The notes beneath the pieces are model-generated. The model did no database searches. It had not been told where the DNA came from and saw nothing but the letters and a program-made list of their open reading frames with translations. From assembly GCF_964204645.1 (NCBI RefSeq), contig NC_134025.1, positions 9,677,001 through 9,741,000 of the forward strand: a stretch of 64,000 bases of DNA, written 5' to 3'. The first letter of the stretch is position 1, and each line of letters opens with the position of its first letter. Shown piece after piece: positions 6,501-35,739 of this stretch. Origin of the DNA: Tubulanus polymorphus. Lineage: Eukaryota; Nemertea; Palaeonemertea; Tubulaniformes; Tubulanidae. The position numbers and the translations under genes are program-made.

Positions 6501-9500
6501 ATGTTCTGATGTTGTTTAAGAAATGCACTCGCTGCAAGTGTTTCGTTCTTTCATGCGGCTGAAATGAGCAGGAAAAATTCGATAACATATTTGAAACAGC
6601 CACCCTATAGTCGAATTGCATTCATAATGGACTCACCAGTTTTTCCCCGGACAACACCTCAAGCAGCTGCAGTAACATCACCCCATTTTTGATATCATTG
6701 AATAACTCTGTTACCTTCGAAGGTGGATCATACTGAAAGAAGTATAACAATAAAAGGCAGAGATTAGTTAAAGGTATTTTGAAAGTTGGGTCTTAATTTT
6801 CTAAACTGAATTGTTCATAACAGACACAAATACATAAGAAATATATCAAAAGCAAATAAGGAGTAATATCCCGAGATACTTACATTACATAGATAGGAGT
6901 TGATCCAGTTTGTGAAGGTCTTTTTCTGCACTCTTTCTTGTTCATCTAGAAGAAAAAAAAGTAATGCAATATTGAAATTAAGTTTTTCAAGAACCTAACT
7001 GCTGAAAGTAAAATATATACATCAAATTCTATATCAACATAAAGAGCCTTATAGTTTCAGGGGAAAAACAACATACAAGAAACTCTCTTTGCAGGAAGCA
7101 ATCCTGCTCTCATCGTATTCTCAATTTTCCTCACGTCGAAACCGATCATATGACGTTCCTTTGGGAACTTTTTCCGCAGTTTCCACTTTAAATCCATCAC
7201 TATTGCCACCGAACAATGCAATGCTGAACGCGGCAGTATTCGATATGATAAAAACATTCGTCAGTTCTACGCGAATCAGAATTATTTCATTATGTTAAAT
7301 AAATATCATACGTAATCTTCTTATGTTAAGTCTTCATGGGAAATTGAATTCATCCACATCGACCAAACCTCGGATGCTAAGACCACTTAGTGCTACCAAA
7401 AATGCCATTATAGGTGCAAAAAACTTTTAACCGGTTAATAACTAACCTTGTAGAATGAAGCGAAATAATTCGGTAGGATCAAAATGCTTATTAAGTAACT
7501 TGGCATACATTGATCAACATGTTTACAACTAGAAAACGAAGTTCAAGTCTTGCCTCTTAGCCTAACGAGTGGGAATCAAGCAATGTGGTTTACCTATCAA
7601 TACTCGTTCATTAGCATCTCACTGGATTTTTTTTTTGCTTATCGCCAATGAACAGTCGACCGCAAAATCAATAAATCAATGTGAAATCAACTGCACGATT
7701 AATTTCTTTATCGAGTACCAGCAGAGAAATTTACCAACGGGAGAATGATGATTTCTTAAATGCCTCGTACTACTTGAATAAATTGGGAAATTAAAACAAT
7801 TTGTCACAAATGAACTGAAAATTGAGAGTTCTGAGGTACACAAATTCAAGCCTGCAAAACTATTAGCTCCACATATTCTAACAAAAAATATTTTGCATTT
7901 CTTTTACCGTCGTAGTAAGAAATAATTCAGGCAAAGAGGCATTTAGTTATATAGAAAGGTATTTCTTTGTGAAATCACAGAAGAGGTCATGGAACGTATA
8001 ATTAATCACGTTCCAATATATGCTTATTGCATAGCAGGGGGCACTGAAATGTTTGAACTGGTTTAATGTTTAACCAACTTATTACGAACACTACAGAAGG
8101 GAAAAGACCACATATGGAAGCTTAGTCGGTGAAAATAATACTATAATCAGTAGTTTTTAACAAGAATTCATATTGATTGTTGTTGTATATTTGCTAACTT
8201 GATAAACATATAAATAAGTGGGGATTTTTTTAGATAGGCTTTTATCTTACATTCCATAAACGCAGTTCTGCAGGTCATAGCACTTTATCAATTAATATAT
8301 TTAAGAGATCAGATGAAGTAATCTAAGAATTTTTTCATTCTGTGAACACTCCTCTACTTAAAACTATACTAATGTATTAAACTGAAAACTCGAGAAAATT
8401 AAGGAACGCAAGAGAGGAAAATTGTAGGTGCATACTTAACACATAGCCAGATTCCTCATTCTGTCCATGCAAAAGCTGATTTACCAGAGCAAATGGTTTG
8501 GAATCTACCGGTAAATTATAGGCAAGGTTTTCGCCAGATTCAGCAGTAACTGGTAAAATTGCCTGGACAAAATTGTGCTCTACATTAAGCAAATTCACAG
8601 ATGACTGATACACATCGTCGAAATCTTCAGCAAGCATTTCTAATTCGGAGCGAGTGGAAACGCCATCGCAATTAGGACTGCTAACGAAACATGGAGGACT
8701 ACGGCGTTCATTCTCTTCCAAAACATCAGTAAATGCCTTCTCCAACTGCTCCAAAACATTTGTTAAGTCGTTCAACTTGTCTAAATTGTCAGAGTTATCA
8801 CTCTCATCAGATGGCGAATGTAATACGGGATGTTCCAGTTCCGACTCCGAACAAGTTACTGTCGTGTCGTGAAAATTCAATGTATCACAGTCAGATGAAA
8901 GAAATGTCTCTGACGTGAAGTAGCCACTATCCTTACTGATATCCCAAGAACCTTTGTTAGCACTGCCTTCTTTAATGTCTAACCCCTTCTCTTGCATTCT
9001 AAACATTTCTTTGCTGATAATCTTAGGTCTTGCACCTTTTTGTGACCAGTCATCTGTGACAGGAACTGAAATTGTTTTGTCGTCATTCTCTTCAGATGAA
9101 TGTGTTAACTTAAGCGGAGATCCACTGGCATTTTGTTGTTTCCTTTTATTGACTACGGCATCATCATCATAGTCACGATTTGTCTCTGATGCACTATACC
9201 ATTTTTCATCGGCATCAGTTGGAAGAGTATACTTGAATTTATTGCTGACTTTACGTTTACCGCGCAAATTGAAATTCAATAATATCGGTTTGATGGCAGG
9301 CAGTTTCACAACGGTGCTTGATTCAAGATCTTTATAACTTGAAGATTCGATTCCAGTGGACATGTTTTCATTTTGAAGAAATTCTTCACCATCATTGCAC
9401 GTCAAATTGGTTTTTGATAATGTCCTTCTTCTTTCGTAGTTCCGATGATCGATTTCAGACATTCGATCAAGATTTGGAACTGTATCGGCTGAAGAGAATG

Positions 9501-12500
9501 TCATAACCATATTTGGACCTGTATCATCATTTATTTGTTCAACTGGAAACTCAGCCCCTCTGACATCAGCAACTTGAGAATTTTCAGCTTTCACTGATTG
9601 ACCAACAACTGAATAAACTGTTGCCATTTTCTGATCTTTCCCATATTTCAAACTGTCAAGGTCTGAACATCTATCGATATTTGGGACATTACCAGCAGGA
9701 GAAAATGCCATGTCCATAGTTGCTTCTTTTCTAGTCTGCGTTTCATGGAGCTTTCTTGTTTGTTCATCATTACTTAAGGATGGTGTTTTTTCTTCGAAAG
9801 GGACATTGTCAAATTCAAAATAAGGAAAGTTTACACAATCAGCATTCTCATATGATGAGTGAGGTTTGAAACTGTTCTTAGAATTCGTCAATTCTTTTGC
9901 ACATATTTCCCCTTCCTGATTAAGGACTTTCTCATTGTTTCTACTATCATCGTTTGATGTAGATTGTATATCACATGCAATCTGTTCAATTTCTTGTTCT
10001 CCATTATCATATGTCTTCATCCCATCTTTAGTTGATCCGCTTTCAGAAGTGAATGGTTCTAGTACTTGCACAACTTCATCAATGGTTTGTATCTGCTGTC
10101 TATCAGCATATTCTTCCATGAAATTAGAGCCATGAAACATATCATCATGATGAGGTTCATCATATCTATGACACGCGAGCGGCGTTATTTTGGCATTCAA
10201 GCCACTGCCACCATCAAGTGGACACAGATACATTGACGCGTGGGAAGTTTGATCATCCTCCAGAAAAACATCTTCTAGTACATCTACATCGAGTAAGTTG
10301 CTAGATATTTTCTCGTAGTAAATTTCATCACGTGTTTCTTGTTGAATTGTGTATGATTTGTAAGTTCTTGAAAAAGCTTGCACAATAACATCGGGATAAA
10401 GATCCGCTTCCTCGATTAATTCTTCACTATGCAAAGTATGTGTACGGACAGCCAATGGAGATTTCATATTCGCTCGCCCCTCTTCACCAAGCTGCAATTT
10501 TTGTTCAATATCAGATTTCTTCAACTCTGATGTACTGGTAGTGATGTTTTCTTTTTTTGATGGAGCCAAATCGGGTAGATGAGTTGTAACTTTTTCCACA
10601 TGTTTGATTTCAGAAGACTCTGAAATACTACTTTCTGAATATGTAGACCTAGGTTCTGCATTAACTTCAGTTAAAGTCTTTCCTTTGTAAAACTCCTTAT
10701 GAGATGATTTCTGAATGGTTTGTTTAGTTTTAGTTTCCAACATCTCAACCGATACTGTCGAACTATTGTCTTTGTCATTAACGCTTATAGTATGTTTCTG
10801 CTGCTCAATGGTACCCTCATGCTCGACGTCTGAAGTCTTTGTAACCTGATCCGATAGCGGAAGAACTAAATTCATCGTATGGTAATATTCTTCATCCGTG
10901 TCCTTGCGTCGGTGAATTTTCTTGCGTTTCTGTGATCTTCTTTTTTCATTCGTCTCGTCGCTCCCTTCATCCGACTTGACTTCTTTATTCCTCGAGACTA
11001 GTTTCGGCGCATTTTCTTCATCGCACCACTCGAACACGTAAATGAATGTTTCGCCGTTGATGTTGATGCGACAGCGCACGCGTTTCTTGCGCCTAAACTT
11101 CCATCTCGGGATGCGGATGCGTATGTGACCTTCGGCTTGGACGTTCCACGGCATCGTCGCAAAAGTTCAATCCCCAGCTACTTCAGTATACTGGTATCAG
11201 TCGTTTCTTCCGGCACATGGAATAACCCGAACGAAACAAGAAAGAATTTTCACCGCACTGGTGTGAATGAAGATCGATTGTGAAGAATTTTGCACAATAT
11301 GATAGGTCATTGAAAGGTAAACAAAGAACATTATCATTCCGTAGATACACACTTTTCACAAACAGTCAATATAGGCATATCAGGTTGCCACGTTTCATAC
11401 AGTTATATGTGACTTGCATTAAATTTTCAGGCTCTTAAATCAGTCAAATAAAAGAAGCAAATATTCCGTGCCGTTTGTCAAGCAATTGACCTCACACTGA
11501 CAGGAAAATTCCAACCTTAGCCATAATCACGCGAACCAGAAATGGCCGTATCTAAATCGACCACTAGAAATCAGATAAGAACGTAAAACAAACTTTCGAT
11601 AGAAGTGAATTACATTTGCTACTTCAATTTTTTCGTAGATGAAAAGTTCTTCGAGGAACTTACCCAATGTTACTATTTCGATAAGTAAATACTTGGTTCC
11701 GGGCAACAGTTTCCGAGGATCATAACAAATTGGACACACAGAAAATGGGTTGTTCGCGAATTGGCAATTGGAGATGTCACCAGATACAGCGTGTTTCTCA
11801 ACAACGGCGAGAATTTCACCGGTATTTGAATTGACCACCGACCTTTGCCCGTTATAATCGGCAAACGAAATTGCGGGCGGGAATCCTCGACCATCAAGAC
11901 TTCGATACCTCACAACTGCTGGTAAATCATCGAACCCTCCGACCATCGAATTCAGTAATCCGAACACGAAGGTCTTAACTTCTAACAAAGGAAATAAACT
12001 TTTTACTCCTCGTTCATTACGTTGATGGTCGTCATCTGCCTCTTCCGGGCTCATTAGACCGATTATACACTTTTCCGAAAACTATTGACACGATTATATC
12101 AACCCGGCTCCCTGGTCACAGTACCATCATAATGCATGAATGCATGTACAGGTAAATAAATGTATATTGAATGAAGTTTCGAATGATTGCTGGTAGGTAG
12201 CGAAAACACCTGGTGTTGCGAACATCTGACACCACCCGAGCGATGAACAAATAGATATACTTTTTAAAAAAATCTGAGTTTACAACAATAACTATCGGTA
12301 CCTAAATCACCAATAAGATTATTATCTAACTAAATAAAGTGAACCTGTTGTTTTGTAACAATGCATAGAATACAAACATGAAAGCTTGTTTTTTCGAGGA
12401 TCAACTAGCTTGACAAACAGTGCATGCAATTTCCAGTATCATCTTATTGATTTGAAAAAGTTATTTCAGATTTTTGTCCGCACCCCTAATCATATGGAAA

Positions 12501-15500
12501 ATAATTGTTTCAAAATAAATGATATCAAGGCACGGTCACAAAATGGGCCTACATTATCTATTGCGAAGAGATTGATAATACATAATTGAAATTCCATTCT
12601 TTAAAAATAGAAACACTAGATGGATGAGCAATGAATCATATGCGTATATACATAGATATTTGATTGATGAAGTTATAGGTATAATACAATATACGAGATA
12701 TTTCATACTTCATGCTATAAACTAATCCGTCTACCTTGTAAATAAGCTATAATATCTTCAACATAGGGGGAATCAACTTCTTCCATAGTGAGCATCCATA
12801 TTACATGAATGCAGCACCTAGTAAAGCATCGATTTTCTAAAAACAATTGAATTTTCACAAAGTTATCGGGACGTTGTAAAGATAAGCTATTCGGTGTATA
12901 TACCAATGTGAAATGGATAACTATCCCTTCTATAGAATTATGGGATGTTTCTCGAAGGAAATGTTGTTCGGCAATCGTCGACTTAATCTGAAGAGAAACA
13001 GAAATAAATGCCGTACGAAATTTTAAATCGCGCAAGGTAAATAGTATGCGTTGAATGGTTCCAGATTACTGGTGGTGAATATACTAGCGCTGCCACCTAC
13101 GAATAAACAAGCAAACTAGAGCGCTTCCTTGGCAACAAGTTTACGCACCCAGCGCTATGGCGTTCATACATACTTAGTGGCATTAACCCTGTAATACTCT
13201 GTAAACCTTTCAATCAAAGATATTACCGGTATCCCTGTCAAAGGAATTAGTATTCTGGCATACAGAAAATGAAAGAAAATTCAGGTGATAAACTTTCCCT
13301 CTATTATGTTGTCCATCGATGAAGCAAATAATTATATAAGGAATTGGCCGAAGAAGTTCACAAATGTACAATGTACCACAGATGCGGGCTAAAGAAATTT
13401 CTACACAGGGATATTGATATTTTCTTCTCTTTTAAGATCATTGCATTTGAATAGAATTTTGAAAAGTAGATTTCTTCGCATAATATTCGAGAGGGACTAT
13501 TCTCCATTGCAACTGATTTTATTTTAAAATTCACCTTGAAATTTGTTCAGATCATTTTCGCAAAATCACACTGCATAAAATTATTATCACCCTGGTAGGT
13601 GGTACATGTTCAATGATTAATTATGCATGCGAACTATGTTTATGATTCGGAAATGTTCTACTAACATTTATTCAACGAATTAATTGCGCGATCTCTCAAT
13701 CTTAAAAATGTTTGCTTAACTAAGGAACCCACACACACGATAACAACTACATGTGCCTTTGCATGTGCTTAGCGTGCAATTTAATCATTCATTAAGGATT
13801 TCATTGGAATCGTTTGCCGAGCCGAACTGTCAATGTTAGAAATGAAGTGATGATTGTTGTGCGTTGTACACAAAAACCGAAAATACAGTTCTTCGATCGG
13901 AATCTAAAGAAAATCCAGAACACCGATCGAGGCGCCTTCGGCAAAAAACATGGTTATGACATGGCAGAAACGCTTCTCTAAAACACATGCTAAGGCTATT
14001 ACAAACCTTTTTTATAGTTCATATGAGCGCGGTATCGTTTTTGGAGGTCGACGCTTTCCCGTCGATTGCGCGAAGTCCGTACCGGCGACTCCCCATCCGG
14101 AGGAAGATGGGGCGATTGCTTCGGTGTCGTACGCGGCGTGTGGCCCGGCGACAACCATCCGGACATCATTCGCGGCGAGAGCGTCCGCGGCGACAATATC
14201 TCCGGCGAAGACATCGCGATCCGAGTCGCGCATCAATCCGAGGTTCGATGGCGAGATTACTCGCGACTAGATACGGAACCCTAAAAAGCGGACGCCGTCG
14301 CTGGTGCTTATTTCGTGAATCGGTTCATATCCCATCTCGTATTCGCGTCGATGCTCAGCGGCAACTAGTCTCCGTGTAACGTAGCATCCTTACACGTTGC
14401 AGGTAAATGACAGCATATGCCACAACGCTGAAGAATTTAATTCGATCAACTAATTCCGATCATAGCAATATATCGAACCATTACCCATTGACAGTCGCGG
14501 CACACGCATACACCGGTCACAATTCAGCAATATAAACAACGTCTGTTTAATCAGCGGGCCTTCGTGTAGTGTGGGTACTCTTTAAAACTGATAACGAAAT
14601 CAGAACAAAATGTAGATAGGCCGTTAAGAAAACGTCTCCGAATTTGATCAATAAAAACCAGTGGTTAAATTGAATGCGTAGAACAATACGGATCTATGAA
14701 AGCCTCCGCTAAGTAATTTCAACATGGTTCGTTGGTAGTGTAAAGGAACTGGTTATAAATTCCGAGCTGAATTTTCATTTCAAACGGCGTAATGAGGCTG
14801 AACAAAGGTATGCCATGGCGGAGAAACAACGCGTATTTTATTTATTGTAAGAAGTCATGGCTTTTCTCGTCAAAAGAAGTAGCCGGTTTGGCTCGGTGAC
14901 AATTGGAACCTGTTGACGCCAACAATTATCTCGATTGAGCTGTCAAGACTATAGCTGCAATCCCACGGAGACAATTCTCAGCCCGGATCAGGCCTGCGTT
15001 AAATACGGCCTGCACCACTCCCTCCGTACTAAACACTGCTTAAACGAAGTGAGCCAGTTCTAGAACCTGTAGCAATTCACATGTCATTATTTGACCCGAG
15101 CTCAAATTTGGTTCGGGCTAAGTCCGATGTTTTTGGTTGGGCCAAACAGGCACGGGCCAATAAGCACTCACGTAAACTGTCATTCCGGGCCTAATTTGGC
15201 ATGGGCCAAAAAACGCTTGTGTGATCGCCGCTTATACTGACTCAACTGGGGTGAAATTACAACAAATCCAAACCAAAATGATGTGCAATTTAAATGATAC
15301 TGTCAAGGCAACACATGAGAAATCTGGAAGAGCAGCTGTATTTTGAAACTCCAAACAAACTCCAAACAATCTGCACGAAAAAATTGAAGAGTACAGAAAC
15401 TCGTTCTTCCCCAAAACTATCAATGACTGGAAAAGGTGTACACATATCGGTTCCAGCGTTAACCCGCAGAGCATCAACTAACCAACAACGCACACCTGCA

Positions 15501-18500
15501 CCAATCATACACGCTATCGTGGACGTGGACGGTGCAGTACTAACTTAAGATAAGAAACAAAAAAATGACATCTTACTTACTACCAGGGATAGGCATCATA
15601 AAGTAGCTCAGATGTCAACAAAAGACATTTGTTTCACATCATACGCCCACATCTCAAAGTGTAAATTCATAAATTATGGTAGATAAGTCTACACTTATTC
15701 ACCATAAATACGACAACCGTAAACCATACCTTTTAGTTCAGTATCTATAGAATCCAGAAACACATTTAAACAAGGGAATAAGTCAGCGCAACAAGAACAT
15801 AGGGGCATAGCTGAACTCTTCAAATATATGGTGTTCAATATCAGAACATGGTTTCTCGTAAAGTATTTCAGAAGTCAATTGAAGCATATTCCAAGCTGAA
15901 AGAATGTACTGGCATTAACTGACAGAATTCCGTGATGTGTAGCCAGCCTTGAAAGTTTTCGACCAAGTCATAGTTAGTAGTAATATATGTATCTTGGATT
16001 TCATTAAAGCTCTTCGAAAACCTATTTAATAGAAGTCTGTCAGCGCGTACCTACGTACATAGTCGGGATTTACAAACATAATATCATTGGTTCACGTAAG
16101 ATACTTAACAGCGCAGGTATATGTCAACAAACTGGTGAAGAAAAGTATACAATTTTGACAAGATGCTTACCTGGCTCAGGGGGCGCATCTGACCTGAGAT
16201 AGTAAATACCATATTTGCACATGATATCCATATTCGAGCTGCAATATTCATACTCGGGCATGAAACCAAAGCCCAAAATATGTCTCCTCCATGATAAAAC
16301 GGCTTCATTCCTCATTTCCAATAGGCCTCTATCCCTTGAAAATCTTTGGACCTTTTTTGTATCAATGAACAGTATTTTCAATCATATTCCAAGATAACTT
16401 TTCAAACATTTGTCATCATTTTGTAGAGGAATCCACTATTGAATCAAAGTCGTTGATTTGAATCCAGTGATATCAAGCTACCGCATATCTATGTTTTGTT
16501 TTCGAATCAAAAACCCATTTACACTTGAAAAACATGACGTAGAGTGAATTCTAGATTTGCGAATCATTAAAAATTCAATGCGAAGCCATTCGTTTTTTAC
16601 GTAAATGTACATCGCAAAATATACCACACAAGCACTTCAAATCCCGAAAATTAATTAACAATATTTCCTAGCTACAGGTACACATATTCCAGCATTGGTT
16701 TTCTATTCCGTCTGTCCGTCGCAATGCATTGCATACAATACTGAGACAGTGGTCGACTTAAACTGAAACCCTATATTTCCGCGCCTATATATCCCGCCAA
16801 AAATGGCCAAAGTCGTTCTTTTTATCATAATCGACACCTCGCATGTACGAATGTCATCAAAAAATACCGAGCCCGACTTAAACGGTACAGAAATTAATCA
16901 CATTTTCTATACATTTCGCTATCAGAACGAATGCACAGACCGTGTTCTCTTTTGAGTGAAGTATAACAAAAAATATCCTCCAGCTTCTGTCGATGTTTCC
17001 ATAGAAACCTTTTCATATACCTCTCCTTAGATATTTCCCATCGACAACGGACACGGACACCGACTAACATTACATAATCATTACATAATCGAGCGCTAAT
17101 GCATCGAAAAATGCCGCATTTTTTAAAAAGTATCCGATCAAATCACCCAAACTATCGAGACTAAAAGTCATCCAAAACCTGCCATAATTTGTCGAGACCT
17201 TATGATTTTTATAGCAGCGAAATAAATAGCGAAGGATACGCTGCACTATACGCAATATCGGAAGCCTATGGCAACCAGCCGTACTGCGCGAGAGCAGAGA
17301 CACACGTTAAACGTGATGACACAATATTGTATGAACAAAAGGAATTATAAATAACTTAAAACCAATAGCGATATAGATTCATGATGTGATTGTTACTGCT
17401 GCCGATAAAATGTGGAAATTGCGGGGTACATCGATATTTTAAAATTTCATAAGTATTCCCAATTGGTTTTAGTCAATGCATGTTTGTTCAGATGCTGATT
17501 TAAGTCATTGTTACAGATTATTCCAAATGGATCAGCGAGACTTTTAAGAAATACTTTTCTATAAAATGATGAAATATAGGAAACAGATCAATAAGGCTTT
17601 TAAGAACTATTCTTCTTTTTTTAAAATCATGAATTATACTGTTATCAGTCAGGTATGCATAACAAGATTAGAAAAAAATGAATTCAAGTCTTATCTCGGA
17701 TATTGACAAACCAATAATACCGTTACCAATAACTGAATGACCTAATACATTTATATAGATATACCTATGTACGGAACAGGAAATTGATTCTTCAATTTTC
17801 AGTAATGTAGTTTTCATTACAAATATAATCAATGCATTTCTTTTGTCAATTAATGAATAGTATATGAATCTTATTACAAGGAGACATTCTTCCATGAGCG
17901 CATCCGTGTTTGCTTTTTTCATTTTTTTTATTATTTACGAAATAATCAAGCGTATTTCTAAGAAGGCAAATATCTATTTTAAAAAAACATAGACATATAT
18001 TTCTTATCAAACTCTTCTCTACAAAACATTTTCTACCTTCATTCGTAGATAACGATGACTCGAGATATAAATGTGCTTTTATCACATGTCTTACCTCTGT
18101 ACTTATGAAATTGGTTTTCCAATTTCTTCGTAGCACCAACCAGCGAGGCCATTTTGTTCGTTATAATCTCTCTACGATAAAACTGTCTGAAAAACGCGGC
18201 CCAAAAAGTGGCCTACTGCCAAATACGCAGGAATTCTGGTATCATGAATAACTCAAAAAATAATCTTCTCTTCGAAATCGTTTTTCGTTAAGTTTCTATG
18301 ATGAAAAACAGCCATTGGTTCGACGACCAATCTTCGAAGTTGGCTGACTATGAAGTGTCGGAATTAAAAACATAGCATTTGAGGGCATTCGTTCTATACA
18401 CATATAAAACCATACCAACGAACCCGTCACGGTATTGTATAAGGCCTACATATCCAGAAGTACAAATATGAAGACACATAATACGCATACATATATTGCA

Positions 18501-21500: not shown

Positions 21501-24500
21501 AAAAAATGGCGCCTGGAAACTATAAAAAGGCTTATTGGAAATTTTGGTTGTTTTCAACCCCTGAAAAATTGTCCAATATGCCAAAGCCTTGATAAGAAGA
21601 CAGGCGATTGCTTACTGACCAAAGTTTAAAACTTCAAAACGTAAAACAAACATAAATAGAAATTTTGGTTTATAGTTGTCAAACCACGGAAATATTTCCA
21701 TACGCTAGCGATAAGTGTAATGTTCACATAATAATGTTCGAAGATAAGATTGAGCACAAAAACACAACACTCATATGGAACAGACATCAAAATGGCCCTT
21801 GTTTCGCTCCCGGCAGGTGTGGTGGGTCTGTAAGGGACACTCAATCAAAAAATGAAACGAAATTTACCAACCAAATAAATAACAGGGACAATTCCTATTT
21901 TAAGATAAAAAACTCGGCACATACCTGACGCCTTTAACCAGTATTTCAATGTAATAACATTGGATGACAAGTTAAACCCTAGTCAACATATTGTAACTAA
22001 GTTGTTCGGTCGAAACTTATGCCACATCTGACGATGATCTCTAGTGTGAGATCAAACGTCGTGTCTTTTAGATTTTTTTTATAAAACAAATTCTCGATTT
22101 TAAAGTTCTCTTAATTCGTACATAGCGGGTTTTTATCTTATTATGCCACATCTTCTGAACAATAAATGCGGCACATTATTACACCGCCCACGAGGTTTTC
22201 ATCGGCTCCATCTATATACACTATATACAACTCAATTCTAGATCTTACCTTTGTACGTTTGCCGTTTATCATCGACTACCTGCGAAGCCTGCAAGATGTC
22301 TTCTTTTTCGAGGCTGACGCTTCGAACTCGCGACATCTCATGTGCGTACGCGGTAAAAAAACTAAACGATAGACGGTTCACTGATACTTGTCATTGCACT
22401 AAATCGCAAAATTTTGCTCGGGACCTAGTGACGACACTTCTCCGCGATAAACGTTATCTAAATTCCGAAATTGAAATTAAACCGCGCCGAGGACAGCGCA
22501 ACACTCACATATACGTATTAGCTATATATACTTAAATATCAAGCGCTAAATAAATACATTTCTAGCACTGTAAAGATAATGTTTAAGCACAAACAATGCG
22601 AAATGAACTTATTCAAATTAGTTTGGGAGAAATTTTCTGACGCGTATTATTAGGTTTGGAACCTACTGCATTGACACCGTAACGACACCCCCCTAACGGT
22701 ACATGTAATAAAAATGCATTCGATGATAAATTGGCCTTTTTTAACGAGTCATGGTCAGTACTTGATACTGAAAAGATCGGCTTTAAGATCAAACGAAGTC
22801 AGCGAAGCCGAATTCGTGACCACTGAACAAATGCCATATCATTTCAATAGCGTTACTACTTCGCGATTTAAATTTCAGTACAATGATATATAAACCAAGT
22901 GAATGACAGGAATTTTCTAAAGAGAACCATGGCAAATTGATTAGTTTTATCACACTACAACAGTTACAAATGAGCTGATCTTCTCTGATTTGAAGAGAAT
23001 AAAACAGTGTATCAAGTCTTAAACAGGCTTAGAACCATCCTCCAACAGCGAAGATTCGAACCTGATGGCATCGAGACTGAGCCACGGCACGAAACCCTGC
23101 CACACTAGCCCGAGTGCGCGGCAGTTTCTTGTGGCAAACTTGCGCACCTGGTCTAGTGTGGCAGGGCTTTGCGCCATGGCTGAGTCTAGGGATGTCATCA
23201 GGTTCTAATCGTTGCCAGGGGAGGATGGCTTATAACCTAATCTAACACAAGAAAAATGATAACTAAGAGAAGAAAAACTATGCATAGGTTGTTTAGCATA
23301 TCTTTAACAAATCTAAGACTTCCGAATGATTTCAACTAGGAAATAAAAAAATTTGCAAAATTTTTATTAGTCAATCCATGCTATCTCGATTAAGAAAATT
23401 TTAGCAGCGTTAATGTCAACACTTTGTCTTTGAATTCGTACAATATGACTTGATTTAACTTGACTAATAATTGCTTTGGGGGTAGTGGCACTCTTCCATT
23501 CAGCGCGGATTATAATGTCGGACAGGAGAAGTCGAATTAACATAACTGAAATTGCGCGATTGAAAAATGAAATAGACCTCTGGCAGAATTCCAAACGAAA
23601 ATTCCTCTAAAACCACCTTCCGTCAAGATTAAGAACTATTGATATATCTATGATGAACTTCAAAATACAATAAGCCCAGAATAAAGTGTTAAACAGAATT
23701 GAAACATATAAACAGCTTTTTTCAAAAACGTTTTGTACGGCTTAAAATTCAGGAAACATCAATATATAGAGAGACTACATTCTAAGTGTATATCATTATG
23801 TACATATTTAAAGGTTTTAACTACTTATAACCCTCAAACCAATTCTAACTGTTATAAATCTAATGCTGATCCTATTCTTAATTTTAAGATTTTAAAAATC
23901 AGTTATACGGATATAGCCGAACACTTCCGCTAACATAAATGGAGAAATTTGTAAAAAAAAAATCACGAAATTCATATTTCAACTAATTACGGCAGGTACT
24001 TGAAAAGAAATAAACTAGAACAGTATCGCCTGTAAAAGTCCCACGAGAATCAAAATTATATGCATTCTTGATACGATTTATGAGACATTTTCATGTAAAC
24101 TATAAAACCAGTTCATTCATTCGAAATATTTCTGAATCTCCCGAACTGAATTAATAACGATTTTCTATTCTAGTTCTACGAATGTTCACTGCGGCGCCAC
24201 TATCTAACAGTATGAAAGGTAGAAACTTCCAGAATATCTTAACTTAGGTGCGAAAGTTCACCGTTGTTTTTTTCCATTATCACCAAAAACCTTTCGATCA
24301 ATTCAAGAACTTTTGAACTTTTTAAGAAACACAGTTATAACGTTTCTTTTCAAGTTGCCTTAAAGAGCAAGTGGAAAAAAATGATAATAATTCCAGATTC
24401 ATAGTAACGTTTTTTTCTTGATCAAGTCCGCTAAAATAAGTAAAATATATTGTCTACTGTTAGATAATCTGACTAACTAATATTGAGCTACTTCATAATA

Positions 24501-27500
24501 TCAAATATTTAAGGTATATTGCGGTAAGCTGCCTGTCTGACATTCTTGATTGACTTCAACATTATGGGAGGGGAACGTTTCTGAATCCGGTTTACATAAT
24601 TTCGATCGTTCTTAGGAATATTTGATTAACCGACATCGGAAAAAACGGTTACAGGATCGCGATAACAATAGGCGAAAAAAGAGTTTATCGGTAAAACGTC
24701 ACATAAATATCGACGGTTATGTAGAAAAGTTTGCGTTGCGGTGACTTGTTACACAGCGTATCCTCTGGCAACGACCAATAGGGGACTGTTATATGTCTAT
24801 ATATATATTCGTCCGCGTGTTAAGTATGAGAAAACGACTACCTGTCACGGAAGTGCCAATTCTCTTTCCACTTACACTAACGAACAATGTATTAAACATA
24901 CAGCTATATGAATAGAATTGACAGACGAACATTAAACATTTTCACGTCATAGACAAGTTTTAAGCTACTTAAATGCCGATCCCTGCAGTCGATCGCGTTC
25001 GATTGTGACCGTAAGCCGCAGGGGGCGTTCTGCGACCAGAAGGTCTCGGGTCTTTGCGCCTTTATGTGTAAAGTTTCACACCATTTTGCGTATAAAGGAT
25101 TGCATTAGGCAGCCGTTAATTCATCAATGAACTTTGAATTAACTTTTTGCGTGGGCTTGTTATTAATTCAATTATGATCCACGCAGTGATTTATCCACGT
25201 AATTCGTGGTTTTGTAATTTCTTAAACACAAACTTTGCCCCCACAAAATCTCTACGTTACAAGAGTTTAATATTTCAGTTCTACATTGGAAAGTTTTCTA
25301 CAAACCTATTTATAAGATAATTCAAATCTTTTCGAATAGTTTATATAATCGTCCTCAGTTCTCAGATATACTCAAATTAAAAATCAGAAAATCAGGAACA
25401 CTTTCATAAATAAGTTTAAAGACCAATCATAATTGTGCCTTAACTATTTCTTATCTTCAGAACTAACCTATAAACTGAGTCAAACACCTAGAACAAAATT
25501 ATGACAAGTCATCGAAGATCGATGATCATATTATCATTTAGGGTCGTCATTTTATTGTAATTTTCCCTATCATTATAATTATATTATTATTATCTTTATT
25601 ATCACTATATCGCTATTTTGTTTTTGTACACTATTTGTTTTTTGTTTATTTTTCATATCTAGGGCATTCCCCCTTTTTTAGTACAGCCTTTAGGCTTGGA
25701 GATATCCTTTCAATTGTGCAGGGCAGTGTACATTAAAGCAACATTCATAAAAATCTTGTACATATATTGGCAAATAAATATATATTATATATATATTATT
25801 ATCTAATCATTCTCATGTGAAACATCCCATAAAATTTAAGATAAGTCACAAATCCAAATTTCATCCAAACAGAAGACATCGACCGTAATAACAACAAATT
25901 CTCTTGACCCTGGAACCAGATGCAAGGTTAACTGTTCATAATGAATGAATCGATACGTACAGAAATCATTTTCCCTGAACTATCATCAGCACACCTTTTC
26001 ATAATAAAAACACGGTCGCGATTCATTAAATAAGGAAATTTGAAAATGTTTATTCTACGGGATTCAATCGATAAAGGATCGATCACGGATGCTAAAGGAA
26101 AAAACCTGCAAAAATATATGCAATATCATGCGTCGGTAATAAAAACAAGTACCCGTAATATGATTGATACAAGTAGTTTGCGTGTGGCAGATCAAACTTC
26201 ATTATTCATCACCCAGTTAAAACTGTTCCAAGTATGGCAACACTAGAGACGACTGCTGCTACGCATCAATAGCAATCATGAAAATTAAATCCAATAACCC
26301 GCACGCTGTTAACTACACCATAAAGCTAGATACACTGAATTCAGCAGTGTTAATGACCAGTATTTGTGACGAAATTCATCAATTTCTAAAATGCACAGAA
26401 TTGACACTTCGATATTTAAGATTACATGGCCGAATAACATACTGTCTTACAAACATCTCGTGCGCGTAGGAAGCAGTTAACAAACGTCTAGACGTTGAAT
26501 ACAAATTTCAGTAGTTATCATCCGTATTGCATTTTTCAATTGAAAATGATTCATTATTATGTCAACATCATTGCTTCAAATTTGTCGTAATAAAAAAGGC
26601 AAAATTCCTCATAACATTTTTCTACATAAAAGCCATACGGTCTATCTAATAAATTCTAGAGAAAAATCTTCATATCTTTACCTTTTTTCTCTTGTATTTT
26701 AAGGTACACGCTGCCTCCGTCTGATCCGCTACTCGATTTACGCATATTTGAACGGGGTATAAAATTCTCTTCAACACAAAACTAAAACACTTTATCCGAT
26801 TATCTTTTCACTTATATCGAATTTCTAAATTCGTTGCGTTGTCGTCGGCTAGCTAATGCGTAAAAAAAAACGTGTATCTCCTGAGTTGTTGATGATGTTG
26901 CTTCGGGTGTTAAATGCATTCAGAAACTTCATCCAATGAGAGAGAGATGTTTCACAGGAATAGTCCTTGTCACACACTGCTGCAAGCCTGGGCAATCAGA
27001 CCGTCACTACTACAGTACTATTAATAATAATACGACACTGACAGGCAGCTACAGGTATAATTGTTCCACGCGAGTATTCAACTGTGACGAACGAACGCTA
27101 CTACTCACTCACGCTCTAATCATAAATTTAATTTTGCTGCAAAGATTAATTGTAAGCTAAAGGGACACGCGTGAATTAAGGTCGATTGTTTCACCGGGTG
27201 TGGAATCTGATTAAAATGTCGCGAAAGCTAAATAACTAACTACCGTAAGCGACGAATAACCTATCGGTTATGTGTTTGCGTATACCTTAACTTTACCGTA
27301 CTACCACCTCTTCAAGGCTTTTACACGTGTAAACAACTAAACAAATAAACGTTCAGTAATTCGAAAACTCAAATTTTATTATAGAAAATTTGCGAATTTT
27401 CACGCGTCCCATTTCAATTTTATCAACACTATATTATCGATTTAGAAAAAAACGTTTAAAATTATGTAATCATGATATCATTGAATATCAAGTGTTTTTG

Positions 27501-29479: not shown

Positions 29480-29574
<95 letters not shown>

Positions 29575-30539
29575 AAACGATTTGACAAACGATCAACGAA
29601 ATTCAACTAATTCAGAAAATACAGTGATACCCATACGCGTTGTTCAATGATTTTTACATTTGACAACGATAATGATCTTATACGACATGCCTTCTTAAGG
29701 CTCTAATGCAAACAGCTTGAATGCAGATCTCTTATATATCTCACTGTGCACAGATGACATATCTTATTGAAACGTTTGGATAACCTTATTCAAATATGTC
29801 TTACAACATATCGAACGATAAAATAATGCGAACGGACACCTCAGAAACCTTTCCTGCCGTGATATTGGGCTTTAATTCAACTGATTACACGTCAATCAGT
29901 TGAATCACGCTTGAAAATTACTGCAGGTACATCGATTCAGCCATCTGTGATAATATACCACGGATAACCGATTGGCTCATACTTGACCTGGATAAAAAAT
30001 GCATCTTGCGCTAACAATTTCAGCGAATCTACTCACAATTCTGTAGTTACAACAATGAGCACCCAGCGAAAATATTGTGGCAGGCGAATTGTGCATATCA
30101 AGATGAACTAATGGCAAATAAAATAAATAATAATAACCCTTATGTTTCAGTACTGATTTTAGTTTATCTGATAATCCGGCTTATTTTTTCGATGAGGAAT
30201 GGTAGAATGGAGTTTTACATCAAATATTCAGGCATGTCATTTGGGAAAAGCCGGTGGTCCTCGTAGGTAACATGATGTTCGAACGTACTCACCAGCGAGA
30301 CTATGTATAGCAGCAGCGATACCGGCCCCGGTTCGACTTATATGCACCGGGTCTTGTAATACTGGAGGTAGAGGGCTGTTAGATCTGGGTAGCTGTATTG
30401 GGCTGCACGCCCTCAATAGCTGCGGACTTGCTGTAAGTGACCGATACGACCCGGCTGGTGTAATCGACCTCGGCGATGCAGCGCCTTCCACGTCGGAAGA
30501 CGGACTCGCAAGAGCCGGACTGCGCAAATTTCGTTTCAT
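794..30539 (-). CDS. SYNE1-like: Nesprin (SYNE1-like) giant actin-binding protein, 5' part, partial
   Basis: Nesprins are outer nuclear membrane proteins that tie the nucleus to actin through N-terminal CH domains; the spectrin-repeat rod and C-terminal KASH segment would lie beyond the left edge. Constitutive exons, in transcript order: 6945-6884, 6732-6637, 6558-6382, 6188-6064, 5957-5761, 5603-5509, 3521-3381, 3229-2912, 2797-2516, 2400-2301, 2176-1971, 1873-1718, 1596-1435, 1348-1022 and 937-794. All have GT..AG borders and matching phases, giving about 862 residues. Nesprin rather than beta-spectrin or plectin is indicated by CH1 text LVNINPSDIADGKPSIVLGL, CH2 text VKDFGKSWRDGVAFNALV and RSNRENLEDAF, and by rod segments that follow vertebrate nesprin-1 order (RAFNQIKQ, KMEYEESRHRLL, GRQDDVDDML, QVWLSDAEKKL). 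The canonical first coding exon is taken as 30539-30293; several alternative first exons are listed separately. SYNE1 versus SYNE2 cannot be decided, since invertebrates usually have one gene. Confidence 0.92.
4280..4360 (-). CDS. Candidate optional 81-nt exon in nesprin linker
   Basis: A minus-strand segment bounded by CTATAG and GTGAGC is 81 bases long, open in phase 0 and symmetric. It encodes 27 residues beginning TSCLKSLHQFMLMHP and ending DGDRRIKCPK. It lies in the 2-kb intron between the last CH2 exon and the first rod exon, where skipping it leaves the frame intact. No homologue is recognised. It is listed because length, phase and borders all agree, but the acceptor is only moderate and the exon could be spurious. 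Confidence 0.3.
5074..5094 (-). CDS. Candidate 21-nt microexon after nesprin CH2
   Basis: On the minus strand the 21 bases (VPVLTEE) lie between TTTTAG and GTAAAA, in phase 0 at both ends. They could be inserted between exon 5603-5509 and exon 3521-3381 without changing frame. This would be a cassette microexon in the linker between the actin-binding domain and the rod. The evidence is only splice-site shape and phase; the acceptor lacks a strong pyrimidine tract. Transcript data would settle it. Confidence 0.35.
5509..6188 (-). CDS. SYNE1-like: Nesprin inter-CH linker and CH2 domain exons
   Basis: Exon 6188-6064 begins IEENSAAALAGL and carries MTAKKALLVWAEKAV, the start of CH2. Exon 5957-5761 supplies most of CH2 (GVPVKDFGKSWRDGVAFN, RSNRENLEDAF, LGIPRLLDPE). 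Exon 5603-5509 ends it with VDMDKPDEKSIMTYVAQF and a short DPDNPDPK tail. The CH1-CH2 linker is short compared with the serine-rich linker of vertebrate nesprin-1. Phases run 2, 1, 0 and are all consistent. CH1 and CH2 together should form an F-actin-binding domain. Confidence 0.95.
6382..6945 (-). CDS. SYNE1-like: Nesprin CH1 domain exons (three exons)
   Basis: Exons 6945-6884, 6732-6637 and 6558-6382 encode the first calponin-homology domain. The first exon starts in phase 1: two bases, AT, complete a codon begun in the previous exon. It carries EQERVQKKTFTNWINSYL, the actin-binding-domain start shared by spectrins, plectin, dystrophin and nesprin. The second exon gives VTELFNDIKNGVMLLQLLEV and the third ends WTIILYFQ. 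The acceptor at 6945 has a long T tract (TTTTTTTTCTTCTAG) and is the common landing site for every alternative first exon described here. Because a donor ending in G produces GAT, the junction normally reads D-E-Q-E, the residue found at this place in vertebrate nesprin. Confidence 0.95.
7077..7197 (-). CDS. Weak candidate nesprin alternative first exon (closest to CH1)
   Basis: A minus-strand frame starting at ATG 7197 (MDLKWKLRKKF) or ATG 7113 (MRAGLLPAKRVS) runs to a GTATGT donor after 7077 and ends in phase 1 with a T. Joined to the CH1 acceptor it would read S-Y-E-Q-E, and Tyr at this place occurs in dystrophin. The donor context (TCTT before GT) is poor. A second reading frame across the same bases is also open, so this is only a candidate. 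Confidence 0.25.
8436..11154 (-). CDS. Giant (906-codon) candidate alternative first exon of nesprin; unknown protein
   Basis: One uninterrupted reading frame starts at ATG 11154 in good context (ACGATGC), with an in-frame TGA twelve bases upstream. The first 50 residues are basic and beta-like (IRIRIPRWKFRRKKRVRCRI). Most of the rest is acidic, Ser/Thr/Asp-rich and probably disordered. It contains a duplicated motif (FSPAGNVPNIDR and FSSADTVPNLDR) and a helical stretch near the end (LNDLTNVLEQLEKAFTDVL). The frame would close at a stop at 8377, but 59 bases earlier is a GTATGC donor after 8436 in phase 1. That phase fits the nesprin CH1 acceptor at 6945 (junction N-E-Q-E-R), and no polyadenylation signal follows the stop. 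I recognise no family. That it is coding is likely; that it joins nesprin is inference. The alternative is an independent single-exon gene of 925 residues. Confidence 0.65.
11664..12054 (-). CDS. Candidate 130-codon alternative first exon; unknown protein
   Basis: From ATG 12054, with an in-frame TAG 33 bases upstream, a frame of 130 codons begins MSPEEADDDHQRNERG and includes VVRYRSLDGRGFPPAISFAD and CPICYDPRKLLPGTKYLLIE. It meets a strong donor, GG|GTAAGT, in phase 1. Two continuations are possible: splicing to the nesprin CH1 exon (junction D-E-Q-E), or to a short local exon after TTTCTAG near 11564 that stops at about 11522. Cys-rich text and balanced composition look like real coding sequence. 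No family is recognised. Confidence 0.45.
12735..12795 (-). CDS. Candidate alternative first exon (MLTMEEVDSPYVEDIIAYLQ)
   Basis: Twenty codons from ATG 12795, or seventeen from the better-context ATG at 12786 (ACTATGG), end in phase 1 at AAG|GTAGAC. The spliced product would read EDIIAYLQ-D-EQERVQ. That resembles the residues before the CH domain in vertebrate nesprin-1 (a helix ending in Leu-Gln before Asp-Glu-Gln-Glu). A longer open frame extends upstream to about 13035, so the exon could also be internal. The donor is only moderate. Confidence 0.45.
12800..14000. other. Nesprin 5' intron; nothing recognised
   Basis: Apart from an open minus-strand frame to about 13035 leading into the candidate exon at 12795, this AT-rich stretch shows no exon, RNA gene or clear repeat. 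Confidence 0.5.
14007..14214 (-). CDS. Candidate alternative first exon, Ser/Pro-rich N-terminus
   Basis: ATG 14214 opens 69 codons with a strong codon signature (repeated TCG CCG) in a locally GC-rich patch, unlike the AT-rich surroundings. An in-frame TGA lies 21 bases upstream, so the ATG is a real start if the frame is coding. The product is Ser/Pro-rich (SPEILSPRTLSPRMMSGWLS), then basic (RESVDLQKRYRAHMNYKK). It ends in phase 1 at AAAAAG|GTTTGT, giving KK-D-EQERVQ after joining the CH1 exon. Several SP/TP sites suggest phosphorylation. The overlapping frames on both strands are shadows. Confidence 0.6.
15232..15500 (+). mobile_element. Degenerate LINE reverse-transcriptase C-terminal relic
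   Basis: One plus-strand frame reads EEYRNSFFPKTINDWKR. This matches the SFFPRTIxxWN signature near the C-terminus of many non-LTR retrotransposon ORF2 proteins. The frame is broken by a TGA about 30 codons earlier and by a TAA soon after, so this is a dead fragment of roughly 270 bp. A different overlapping frame is open for 84 codons (to 15548) but looks like a shadow. Only the signature supports the call. Confidence 0.4.
15730..15808 (-). CDS. Candidate alternative first exon (MPLCSCC...SIDTELK)
   Basis: Twenty-six codons from ATG 15808 end in phase 1 at AAAAG|GTATGG. The predicted N-terminus is Cys-rich (MPLCSCCADLFPCLN), then acidic-helical (VFLDSIDTELK), and would continue D-E-Q-E-R into CH1. 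A Cys cluster at the extreme N-terminus could be a palmitoylation site, which is speculation. Support is phase and donor shape only. Confidence 0.35.
16171..16315 (-). CDS. Candidate alternative first exon (48 codons)
   Basis: ATG 16315 is the first ATG of a frame that opens after a TGA near 16384. Forty-eight codons (MRNEAVLSWRRHILGFGF ... YYLRSDAPPEP) run to a good donor, CCAG|GTAAGC, in phase 1. Splicing to the CH1 exon gives PPEP-D-EQERVQ. Hydrophobic, Trp/Tyr-rich composition differs from the other first exons. Possible, but not supported by any homology. Confidence 0.35.
18095..18152 (-). CDS. Candidate alternative first exon (MASLVGATKKLENQFHKYR)
   Basis: ATG 18152 lies in an excellent initiation context (AACAAAATGG). 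Nineteen codons end in phase 1 at AGAG|GTAAGA, a strong donor. The product continues KYR-D-EQERVQKK, forming an amphipathic basic helix that leads into CH1. Length and charge resemble the short variable N-termini of plectin isoforms. Among the best-supported members of the array by start context and donor. Confidence 0.55.
19203..21908. mobile_element. 2.7-kb element with long terminal inverted repeats
   Basis: Two arms of about 440 bp (19379-19820 and 21095-21537) are inverted copies, about 90% identical by eye, separated by about 1.27 kb. Outside them, further inverted matches (19255-19296 with 21796-21840, and TCTTAAAATAGG near 19208 with its complement near 21890) extend the structure to about 19203-21908. 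No transposase is recognised in the interior, so this looks like a non-autonomous fold-back or long-TIR DNA element. Each arm carries an outward-reading 65-codon open frame (MSxIIKKFII...KKMAPGN), which may only reflect the shared sequence. Confidence 0.8.
20498..20552 (-). repeat. tRNA-like relic or tRNA-derived SINE head
   Basis: Read on the minus strand, TACCATGGTGTAATGGCGAG closely follows the 5' half of an animal tRNA-Gln, including a box-A-like TGGTGTAATGG. It is followed by CGG-TTAAATA-CCG, which can fold as a T arm. The anticodon arm is missing or collapsed and the acceptor stem does not close well. It is therefore a tRNA pseudogene or SINE head rather than a working gene. It lies inside the long-inverted-repeat element. 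Confidence 0.3.
22249..22336 (-). CDS. Candidate alternative first exon (29 codons)
   Basis: ATG 22336 (context GAGATGT) opens 29 codons, MSRVRSVSLEKEDILQ through VVDDKRQTYK, ending in phase 1 at AAAG|GTAAGA, a strong donor. Joined to CH1 it reads QTYK-D-EQERVQKK. The text is polar, with an RVRSVS site that fits a basophilic-kinase motif and an acidic helix. The good donor, length and coding-like composition make it one of the stronger array members. Confidence 0.55.
23046..23216. repeat. SINE-like imperfect hairpin
   Basis: Two arms of about 70 bp (left from 23046, right ending near 23216) are inverted copies at roughly 80% identity. They share CCTGCCACACTAG, its complement CTAGTGTGGCAGG, and CCTGATG with its complement. 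Each arm, read from loop to end, carries a box-A-like TGGCTCAGT/TGGCTGAGT and a box-B-like GGTTCGAATC/GGTTCTAATC. This suggests two head-to-head tRNA-related SINE fragments or a small fold-back element. Confidence 0.5.
24842..24899 (-). CDS. Weak candidate alternative first exon
   Basis: Nineteen codons from ATG 24899 (MFNTLFVSVSGKRIGTSVT) end in phase 1 at ACAG|GTAGTC. Both the start context (T at -3) and the donor are weak. It is recorded because it sits in the same interval and phase as the stronger first exons; it may be chance. Confidence 0.2.
25540..25800 (+). repeat. Possible retroelement 3' tail
   Basis: A T-rich stretch is followed by GTACAGCCTTTAGGCTTGGA with a small inverted motif (GCCTTTAGGC), then a run ending in AATAAA and (AT)-rich simple sequence. 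This layout resembles the 3' tails of LINE or SINE copies in invertebrate genomes. No coding part is attached. Low confidence. Confidence 0.25.
26682..26745 (-). CDS. Candidate alternative first exon (MRKSSSGSDGG...)
   Basis: ATG 26745 (A at -3) opens 21 codons, MRKSSSGSDGGSVYLKIQEK, ending in phase 1 at AAAAAAG|GTAAAG. Joined to CH1 it reads QEKK-D-EQERVQKK. A serine/glycine-rich start followed by a charged helix is a typical variable N-terminus for this protein class. The donor is acceptable and the text looks protein-like. Confidence 0.55.
26800..29480. other. Nesprin 5' intron; nothing firm recognised
   Basis: Only short unsupported frames are seen. One minus-strand frame at 28520 (MVDLEAIKYTYIL, phase 1 at TTAG|GTTATC) could be another first exon, but its donor is too weak to annotate. 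The same holds for 22400-23040, 23220-24840, 24900-25540 and 25800-26680: no supported feature. Confidence 0.5.
29484..29571. repeat. (AT)n microsatellite
   Basis: About 88 bp of almost pure TA dinucleotide repeat with a single AA interruption near 29526. Probably length-polymorphic and prone to cruciform formation. It lies in the long 5' intron of the nesprin gene, about 0.7 kb downstream (in transcript direction) of the canonical first coding exon. Confidence 0.98.
30293..30539 (-). CDS. SYNE1-like: Canonical nesprin first coding exon
   Basis: ATG 30539 (context AGGATGA, in-frame TGA 24 bases upstream) opens 82 codons in a GC-rich patch. It ends in phase 1 at GCTG|GTGAGT, a strong donor. 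The encoded N-terminus is Ser/Pro-rich (RSPALASPSSDVEGAASPRS, SPIQLPRSNSPLPP) and finishes GAGIAAAIHSLA. Spliced to the CH1 exon 23 kb away it reads IAAAIHSLA-D-EQERVQKK, which aligns position by position with the I-A-x-x-x-x-x-L-x-D-E-Q-E lead-in of vertebrate nesprin-1. This is the best evidence that first exons in this interval belong to nesprin. Multiple SP sites suggest phosphoregulation. Confidence 0.72.
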
Positions 30540-30772
30540 CCTCGCGAGACTCGATTCTAGTTTTCAATTGTCGATTCTACAAAAAAACAAAAATACACGG
30601 GTTTCTATAACCTTAATCGCATATTATCATATATATCGCTAAAATTCAGTTTCCTGGAAGCGGATCGCGAGGTAACCATGGCAACGAAACGTTTCCTTCC
30701 CATGACATGTTTCTACCATACAGAAAAAGAAGGCCTTCAACATATGACGCCATAAACGTGTTGTCTGGATAC

Positions 30773-30839
30773 CTATTAATAAACCCACTGAACTGTAATA
30801 ACTTTTCTTCAATTTCTCTTCGTCGTCTGATAAATTCAT
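30773..30839 (-). CDS. Candidate alternative first exon (MNLSDDEEKLKK...)
   Basis: Twenty-two codons from ATG 30839 (MNLSDDEEKLKKSYYSSVGL) end in phase 1 at ATAG|GTATCC. The acidic SDDEE start carries a casein-kinase-2-like site. Joined to CH1 it reads GLLI-D-EQERVQ. It lies only 234 bp upstream of the canonical exon, so the two could share a promoter region. Donor strength is moderate and the start context weak. Confidence 0.35.
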
Positions 30840-31985
30840 ATAAATAAACTGAATTAATTCCCGCTGAATTAGAAAATGTTCGCGCTATCCTACATTGCTT
30901 AACATTGTATTACACCAGTATTAAAAAATACAACGATAATGATACAGAATCAAAGAAGTCGAATAGATCTCGACCTATTTCAACTGCCGTTGATCGACAT
31001 AAAATCAATCACTAACCTAGCAGCATCCGCATATCATCACTCGTAACCTGATATTGACACGATGCAGCTATACATAAAGCCGAGACATTACAATGAACAC
31101 CCGCAGTTCAGAAATAACTGATCGGCATTATTCAGAGCAAACTAGGGGATGTTTATTGCTCGATAAAATGGTTAAAATCCGTCCTATACAAAACTCATGA
31201 TAATCGATAGATGACACGGATAATATCCACAAATAATCGAATTATAGCTCACTTCAATAAACAACGTGATGAATGCTACCTTCGTTCCAATTAGCGATTA
31301 GCGTAACAAGTACATCCCATCTGTCGGTGTAAGCCGTATTTTTACGACGGCACCGGCATCAATAAGCGACATAGAAACACCGCAGTTAATAAGAGAGTTC
31401 ACGCGCTTTCAACAGCATCCATTGTCAAACCGGTTCGCGAGCAAATGAGCGAACGCTTGATGGAATGGTTTCTCGTTGCGTCTTGCTAGTTTTTATTGAG
31501 AGCAGCACACATATCAAATGAATCGATACACACTCACTCACATCATCGCGATGAATGCAGTTATGATAATATTACCTTTCATTGATCTTTCAAAATATAA
31601 CTGCTCATTTACACGACTTGTCGATCAACGATATTAATAACCGACACGCAGGGGTTCGACTGTGATGAATATCATTAAATCTGTTACATACAATCACAGC
31701 GACAAATCGCTGTCAAGAGCAAGGTTAATCAAGGAACAAGTGGGTCTGTGGATACAGGAAAAATAACCATGACTGGTATTGCGTGCATTTAAAAAAGTTG
31801 CCTATTCATGATTTGAATGTATATTTTTCCATTAAGTTATAAATTGTTTACATTGTTTTCCTTATAATACAATAAATCAATGTTTATCAAATGTTTCAAT
31901 ATTTTGGACATTTTTACAGGTGCTTTTCTTCAGTTATCATTTCCTAAGAATATAGGCCTACCTAGCAACAAGCCCAACAACTCTA

Positions 31986-35140: not shown

Positions 35141-35739
35141 AATTACACACCATTCGCCCACACCAGAGGCTACTAAATAATACCATTCGTCAAAGGACAG
35201 GATAAACGCTGTCCGCACGTGTGTGACAGTGACCATTTCAATTTCGGGAACATAAATGTGGAAAGACGGCTCTTTCAAAACGAATTTACCTAGGCCTACG
35301 CAGTCCCAATTATACACAATTGCATATGCTCGGAGCCACCCTCTAATGTACGATAAGCGCCACCACTCGGGTTTTGTTCGAACTAACAATGATAGCTGGT
35401 TTGTGATGACAGTACTGAATGAAGATGGGGAATGATGAAGGTATTCACGATTAAACGGTTCTCGCTTTGATTTAATATTTCTAGTACTTTAAACTGGCTC
35501 ACCATCATTGTGCAAAAATAGGGGCTCGTCAGAAAAAGATCCAAGGCCTGCATCCTTTCCAAAATTATTTGTTTCCAATCCATTTGATTTCTTCAATCAT
35601 GATGACTTCCTAATGATTGACTGTCAGTTTTGTCTTCTTACTCTTCTCTTGTCCATCCAAAGATGATTTCAATTCATTTTCAATTTCAGACTACGCTACT
35701 GAGCTGAAGTATTTCTCTCATTAAACGTCACAGCAAATA

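Follow-up and report, generated by a model that had tools for sequence, protein, structure and literature searches.

A candidate array of alternative first coding exons ahead of the actin-binding domain of a nesprin gene in Tubulanus polymorphus

We analysed 64,000 nucleotides of the genome of the nemertean Tubulanus polymorphus (the window; RefSeq assembly GCF_964204645.1, contig NC_134025.1, C1:9677001-9741000), which contain part of a predicted nesprin gene on the minus strand. Upstream of the exons encoding its tandem CH actin-binding domain, in an interval of 24 kb, several segments that begin with ATG have donors whose phase suits a single common acceptor, at position 6945, and such phase-matched coding-like segments exceed chance. 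We favour, with good though not full confidence, the interpretation that these segments form an array of alternative first exons, which would have six to eight members rather than the eleven of the original prediction. The retained set, named by start position, probably comprises 30539, 26745, 22336, 18152, 14214 and 12054, together with 11154 and 12795. We put forward only tentatively, as a possibility that we would not rank as the likelier outcome, the stronger proposal that eight or more first coding exons, the longest with 906 residues, share one acceptor in the gene with the only KASH detected in the genome, start choice giving plectin-like N-terminal diversity.

In such an array, each member would have its own start codon, could end at a phase-1 donor and would be spliced singly to the 6945 acceptor, the intervening members being skipped. 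One actin-binding domain, with its rod and KASH anchor, would receive differing N-terminal tails, namely short basic, serine/threonine-proline (S/T-P)-rich, acidic or giant disordered ones. The tail is probably decided by the choice among putative promoters, and its presumed function would probably be to tune the location of the protein or actin binding by the CH pair.

Coding-like segments in phase with the shared acceptor

The shared exon on which the candidates would converge is the following.

6884..6945, minus strand: shared CH1 exon, entered in phase 1 at acceptor 6945, reading (D)EQERVQKKTFTNWINSYLCN; CH match; end read by hand

The acceptor, TTCTTCTAG/ATGAACAAG (the slash marks the splice junction), scores 7.0. 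Reading across the junction, TTCTTCTAG/ATGAACAAGAAAGAGTG, one upstream base completes a codon NAT, and a G at this place gives Asp. The exon sequence, entered in phase 1, bears out the proposal that this acceptor requires a phase-1 partner. It had also been argued that the candidates restore D-E-Q-E at their junctions. A G before GT does yield D, but this reasoning is nearly circular: the donor consensus itself has G at -1, so that most donors yield D, and every donor with this base does. The restoration therefore has little weight, and we discarded it as evidence for an array.

Candidate segments were scored with a phased third-order coding model built on 26 open reading frames (ORFs; 7,881 codons before trimming) of the same 164-kb stretch, the 7-31 kb region being left out, and with a generic metazoan donor matrix. 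The main scan covered all phases of the minus strand from 7 to 32.5 kb and retained ATG-open frames with a donor of at least 3 and a coding score of at least 4 bits. Six distinct minus-strand donors passed (30293, 26682, 22249, 18095, 14083 and 11664), against a mean of 0.475 and a maximum of 4 in 120 simulated 24-kb strands, and none on the plus strand. Five of these donors are in phase 1 only, which would happen once in 243 if phases were random (by hand); the sixth, 14083, is internal to the 14214 exon, and its frames fall in phase 0 as well as phase 1. With the coding filter off and the donor threshold kept at 3, the counts in phases 0, 1 and 2 were 5, 11 and 1 on the minus strand and 2, 1 and 6 on the plus strand. 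The earlier estimate, about three frames outside phase 1, is too low if weak donors are allowed, as 166 ATG-open frames of all phases have a donor of at least -2.

A second scan, which required a summed coding and donor score of at least 8, gave nine segments on the minus strand at 7-31 kb, including six of phase 1 (hand-calculated P about 0.04). The remaining three were two phase-2 segments with poor donors, at 23062 and 20345, and the 906-residue ORF, whose best-scoring end is in phase 0. There were no matches antisense to this region and two in 77 kb of antisense gene body; one match per strand was found at 31-36 kb, and matches in all phases at 38.5-54 kb, where real genes lie. Finally, ten candidates (11154 was left out) were each compared with 300 dinucleotide shuffles of their own neighbourhood. 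With any phase allowed, six of the ten reached P of at most 0.01 each, uncorrected for the 24 kb scanned, namely 30539, 26745, 22336, 18152, 14214 and 12054. The eight retained candidates are listed here with their lengths in amino acids (aa) or nucleotides (nt).

30293..30539, minus strand: candidate A, start 30539, 82 aa, S/T-P rich; donor 6.9, coding 17.4 bits, shuffle 0 of 300
26682..26745, minus strand: candidate B, start 26745, 21 aa (64 nt), Ser-rich and basic; donor 3.1, coding 5.2, shuffle P 0.010
22249..22336, minus strand: candidate C, start 22336, 29 aa; donor 6.4, coding 16.3, shuffle 0 of 300
18095..18152, minus strand: candidate D, start 18152, 19 aa (58 nt); donor 6.2, coding 4.0, shuffle P 0.003
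14007..14214, minus strand: candidate E, start 14214, 69 aa, S/T-P rich, charge +8, in a GC-rich peak; donor 0.9, coding 20.2, shuffle P 0.007
12735..12795, minus strand: candidate F, start 12795, 20 aa, acidic; donor 1.1, coding -1.0, ends V-E-D-I-I-A-Y-L-Q/D
11664..12054, minus strand: candidate G, start 12054, 130 aa; donor 4.9, coding 19.8, shuffle 0 of 300, single copy
8436..11154, minus strand: candidate H, start 11154, giant, 906 aa, charge -58; coding 158.9 bits, single copy

All eleven ATGs of the original prediction lie where they had been placed and their frames are open. Among the proposed phase-1 donors, those at 30293, 22249, 18095 and 16171 are strong (6.2-7.7) and those at 11664, 15730 and 26682 fair, while 12735, 14007 and 8436 are weak and that of 30839 is unusable. 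Weak member donors are not impossible, because the donors of the known CH exons (five of the six were used) also range from 0.3 to 7.0. Two exons are enriched in S/T-P dipeptides: 30539 has 7, where 2.30 are expected from composition (P 0.0012), and 14214 has 8, where 2.21 are expected (0 of 20000). This excess is a sign of constraint at the protein level; the other six of the eight exons tested, including the unsupported 16315, showed none. A caution applies to 14214, where an overlapping plus-strand ORF has a coding score of 18.6 against 20.2.

No likeness among the members beyond composition was seen by eye, no alignment being run, and Pfam gave no match for the five candidate exons searched (11154, 12054, 30539, 14214 and 22336). 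The DNA at 11530-12081 and at 15600-16400 is single copy in the genome, 7-36 kb contains a single tandem repeat, an AT run at 29484-29571, and Rfam gave no match at gathering score within the window. For the 130-residue product of 12054, single-sequence structure prediction was poor (mean predicted local distance difference test score, pLDDT, 43.8).

The 11154 exon is clearly coding. Its phase-1 donor at 8436 scores only -1.3, its phase-0 donor at 8485 scores 2.5, and the ORF is complete from ATG to a stop at 8377 (925 aa). This completeness, the weak phase-1 donor and the lack of a Pfam match for either the 906-aa or the 130-aa ORF would suit two independent genes lying within the first intron, rather than N-termini of the nesprin; we regard this explanation as unlikely. 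The coding signal of 11154 is positive over 8484-8425, negative from 8454 on, and so stops ahead of the 8377 stop, further downstream, and near the two donors, as expected for the end of an exon. A splice near 8485 or 8436 therefore fits, although only 8436 is in phase 1. Likewise, the 12054 ORF has a fair phase-1 donor (4.9), and its coding signal fades and turns negative beyond it.

The 12795 segment is borderline in the shuffle test (P 0.047 in any phase, 0.030 in phase 1 only). Its missing coding signal means little, because it has only 61 nt and the true CH1 exon itself scores -2.2. It is the only one of the 166 ATG-open frames with a junction of the V-E-D-I-I-A-Y-L-Q/D-E-Q-E type, and three control scans, with 470 frames in all, contained no example; the pattern was defined post hoc from two vertebrate nesprin sequences. 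The end of 12795 fits the N-terminal pattern of human nesprin-1 and -2 at this junction, and through this vertebrate nesprin motif it is probably a member.

Three candidates were set aside. The donor of the 16315 segment (16171..16315, minus strand) is, at 7.7, stronger than that of any other of the eleven, but the segment has a coding score of -9.9 and a shuffle P of 0.370 (0.157 in phase 1 only); it could be a non-coding exon. The 15808 segment (15730..15808, minus strand) has a donor of 4.4, a coding score of -6.0 and a shuffle P of 0.183 (0.080 in phase 1 only). At 30839 (30773..30839, minus strand) the best phase-1 donor is -1.4, the coding score 0.2 and the shuffle P 0.210; in phase 1 only, its P is 0.040, near that of 12795. 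The original prediction had warned that some members may be chance, and these three of the eleven are without support. What stands of the eleven-member array is a phase-1-biased excess of coding-like ATG segments in scans that did not select for phase; 11154 keeps a weak phase-1 donor, and 12795 depends on the vertebrate nesprin motif.

Number of starts, start context and CpG content

It is conceivable, though unlikely in our view, that only two to four starts are real, in the manner of Drosophila Msp300 (for example 30539, 22336 and either 12054 or 12795), the others being chance. On donor and coding scores jointly, 30539, 22336 and 12054 exceed the rest, whereas 26745 and 18152 have only 64 and 58 nt and 5.2 and 4.0 bits. 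Msp300 provides a precedent with four postulated starts (PMC8616381), two of which would apparently precede the CH exons. However, the simulated rate of 0.475 per strand, in any phase, compared with six observed, leaves little room for chance members.

The segments could also belong to one long 5' region, as exons used in succession or as cassettes, and not be alternatives to each other. Acceptor-like sites are indeed present upstream of the ATG at 30539 (30576, score 5.6), 12795 (12987, 6.9), 14214 (3.5) and 18152 (3.4), and inside the 12054 exon at 11981, phase 1 in and out. In seven of the eight retained members, however, the frame is closed by a stop 15-63 nt ahead of the ATG (273 nt for 12795), and no acceptor with a score of at least 3 is present within 250 nt upstream of 26745, 22336, 12054 and 11154. 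We consider this arrangement very improbable. A purine is found at -3 in six of the eight retained members.

The ratio of observed to expected CpG (CpG o/e) is 1.10 over 7-31 kb, compared with 0.70 in the rod and 0.74 in the CH region, and varies from 0.24 to 0.98 in 500-base windows at 31.5-36.5 kb. Judged from CpG content alone, this has the look of unmethylated promoter territory between methylated gene bodies. Seventeen CpG peaks are listed at 6-33 kb: one lies at most 300 nt from each of the eight retained members (22201-22500 for the 22336 exon), one is inside the 906-aa exon, and eight are elsewhere. A shift test gave 0.027 on the eight retained members, which were chosen after the CpG map had been seen. 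Mean upstream CpG o/e is 1.36 for these eight and about 1.30 for all eleven (by hand).

Several observations weigh against an array of this size. All but one of the eight retained members have an out-of-frame ATG within 100 nt upstream, and translation would suffer from it if this sequence is transcribed. The acceptor-like sites upstream of 30539 and 12795 suggest that these two follow non-coding exons. The coding model, whose 26 training ORFs include many spectrin repeats, scores the true CH1 exon below zero. With the donor threshold lowered to 0, the plus strand yields 4 coding-like frames (null mean 2.35). Both 26745 and 18152 sit at the scan thresholds (donor 3.1 and coding 5.2 bits for 26745, near both limits; coding 4.0 bits for 18152), the donors at 14007 (0.9), 12735 (1.1) and 8436 (-1.3) are weak, and the phase excess is modest once all nine combined-score segments count. 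As to CpG, the average o/e exceeds 1.10 in 5 of 18 other genome stretches, the peaks at 7081, 14761, 17021, 19241, 20241, 24561, 28081 and 31161 have no member, and over the 500 nt that precede 12795, 11154 and 12054 the o/e is only 1.13, 1.15 and 0.87. In favour of the array, all six rows of a scan for acceptor-open-donor segments (coding at least 4, 6.8-32.5 kb) fell within members 11154, 12054, 30539 and 22336. Cassette exons as extra segments were rejected on this basis, though the scan misses CH1 itself and would, with such a coding threshold, overlook other short exons.

Two strong CpG peaks within the interval, 17021-17320 and 24561-24860, coincide with no supported first exon. Each may mark an enhancer or a first exon that is non-coding; the peak at 17021-17320 perhaps leads to the strong donor at 16171. 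The 31500-35500 region, which borders the CpG-rich interval, is CpG-poor (o/e 0.24-0.87) and has two minus-strand ORFs without a Pfam match.

The host gene and its neighbours

By its domain content (CH pair, Spectrin_SYNE1 repeats and KASH), the host gene of the 24-kb interval is classed as a nesprin, in agreement with the original prediction. Its remaining features in the window are as follows.

5509..6945, minus strand: tandem CH actin-binding domain, six exons; PDB and Pfam CH matches, boundaries by hand
6884, 6637, 6382, 6064, 5761 and 5509, minus strand: ends of the CH-domain exons, hand-read
1715..2171, minus strand: nesprin-type spectrin repeats, two Spectrin_SYNE1 matches above cut-off, the genome's best

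The first three CH exons span 6945-6884, 6732-6637 and 6558-6382 (boundaries by hand), and Pfam CH matched in two stretches of the CH exons. In the PDB, the CH pair matched plectin, MACF1 and beta-spectrin over their actin-binding domains (best E 7.4e-67). As none of the chains in 60 of the 66 match rows is named nesprin, the family of the host gene was decided by the rod and not by the PDB table. In the 267.8-Mb genome searched, 12 of the 13 Spectrin_SYNE1 matches reported, in a count that scored only the best candidates, fall in the host gene, and the two above cut-off lie just downstream of the CH exons. More long ORFs follow as far as -67.6 kb. The single KASH match reported in the genome (C1:9606823-9606993, E 1.2e-23) is on the same strand about 77 kb from CH1, and we assign the two parts to one predicted gene. 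A separate plectin-like CH1 piece is present in the same genome at C2:23114857-23114919 (90% over 21 aa, E 8.6e-4).

Upstream of the array and on the same strand, pieces of a SART-1 family gene extend over 40780-42311 (minus strand), with Pfam E values of 2.3e-29 on 40780-41151 and 2.4e-5, under the curated cut-off, on 42174-42311. Coding-like segments continue from there to 45918, and the one tested had no Pfam match. On the plus strand, 36372-37637 is a long CpG-rich ORF with ankyrin repeats and, at its end, a weak SOCS-box match below cut-off. A second CH gene, also on the plus strand and divergent from the nesprin, runs from 48712 to beyond 54752, with an ATG segment at 48712-48834 and a CH match at 54633-54752; judging from sequence likeness, it is probably a beta-spectrin. 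An ORF of 837 aa at 70677-73187 (window coordinates, past its end) may belong to it. Two ORFs at distant places in the genome, L028 and L029, are near-alike by eye and zinc-finger-like, and are probably from a mobile element.

Comparison with known first-exon systems

If the array is real, the plectin-style targeting of a cytoskeletal linker through its first exons also serves a protein that joins nucleus and actin, whether independently or anciently. The shared phase-1 site just before the CH1 core, seen here and also present in plectin, would then allow a test of whether an ancestral acceptor favoured arrays of this kind on two occasions. Moreover, deletion of one N-terminus may spare other forms of the nesprin.

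In vertebrate plectin (PLEC), many first coding exons feed a single exon where the actin-binding domain begins, and the candidate array, as predicted from sequence, would resemble it in this. The plectin junction likewise rebuilds D before E-R-D-R-V-Q-K-K-T-F. Plectin differs in being a plakin with described transcripts, whereas the host gene combines spectrin repeats of nesprin type with a KASH. According to a figure legend in PMC8468861, twelve first exons of plectin splice into exon 2.

Among nesprins, Drosophila Msp300, the nesprin-1 orthologue, has postulated starts at exons 1, 3, 18 and 21 (PMC8616381). It is a nesprin with alternative starts, apparently two of them before the CH exons, fewer than the six to eight proposed in T. 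polymorphus. Mammalian nesprin-1 and -2 have tissue-specific alternative starts, many of them internal, and in Table 1 and rapid amplification of cDNA ends (RACE) data of PMC3388047 the 5' ends begin from intron 14-15 on for nesprin-1 and from exon 49 on for nesprin-2. Because these ends lie inside the gene, the alternative forms would lack the CH domains, and section 5 of that paper lists no array ahead of CH1.

The protocadherin, UGT1 and GCNT2 clusters, as described in PMC1885805, also have several first exons that share constant downstream exons. They are, however, tandem arrays, unlike the members here, which show no mutual likeness by eye. Among the titles and abstract openings listed in our searches of open-licence papers, none dealt with an array of first exons ahead of nesprin CH exons. 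If real, a longer array ahead of the CH exons would be new in a nesprin, in an arrangement already known from plectin.

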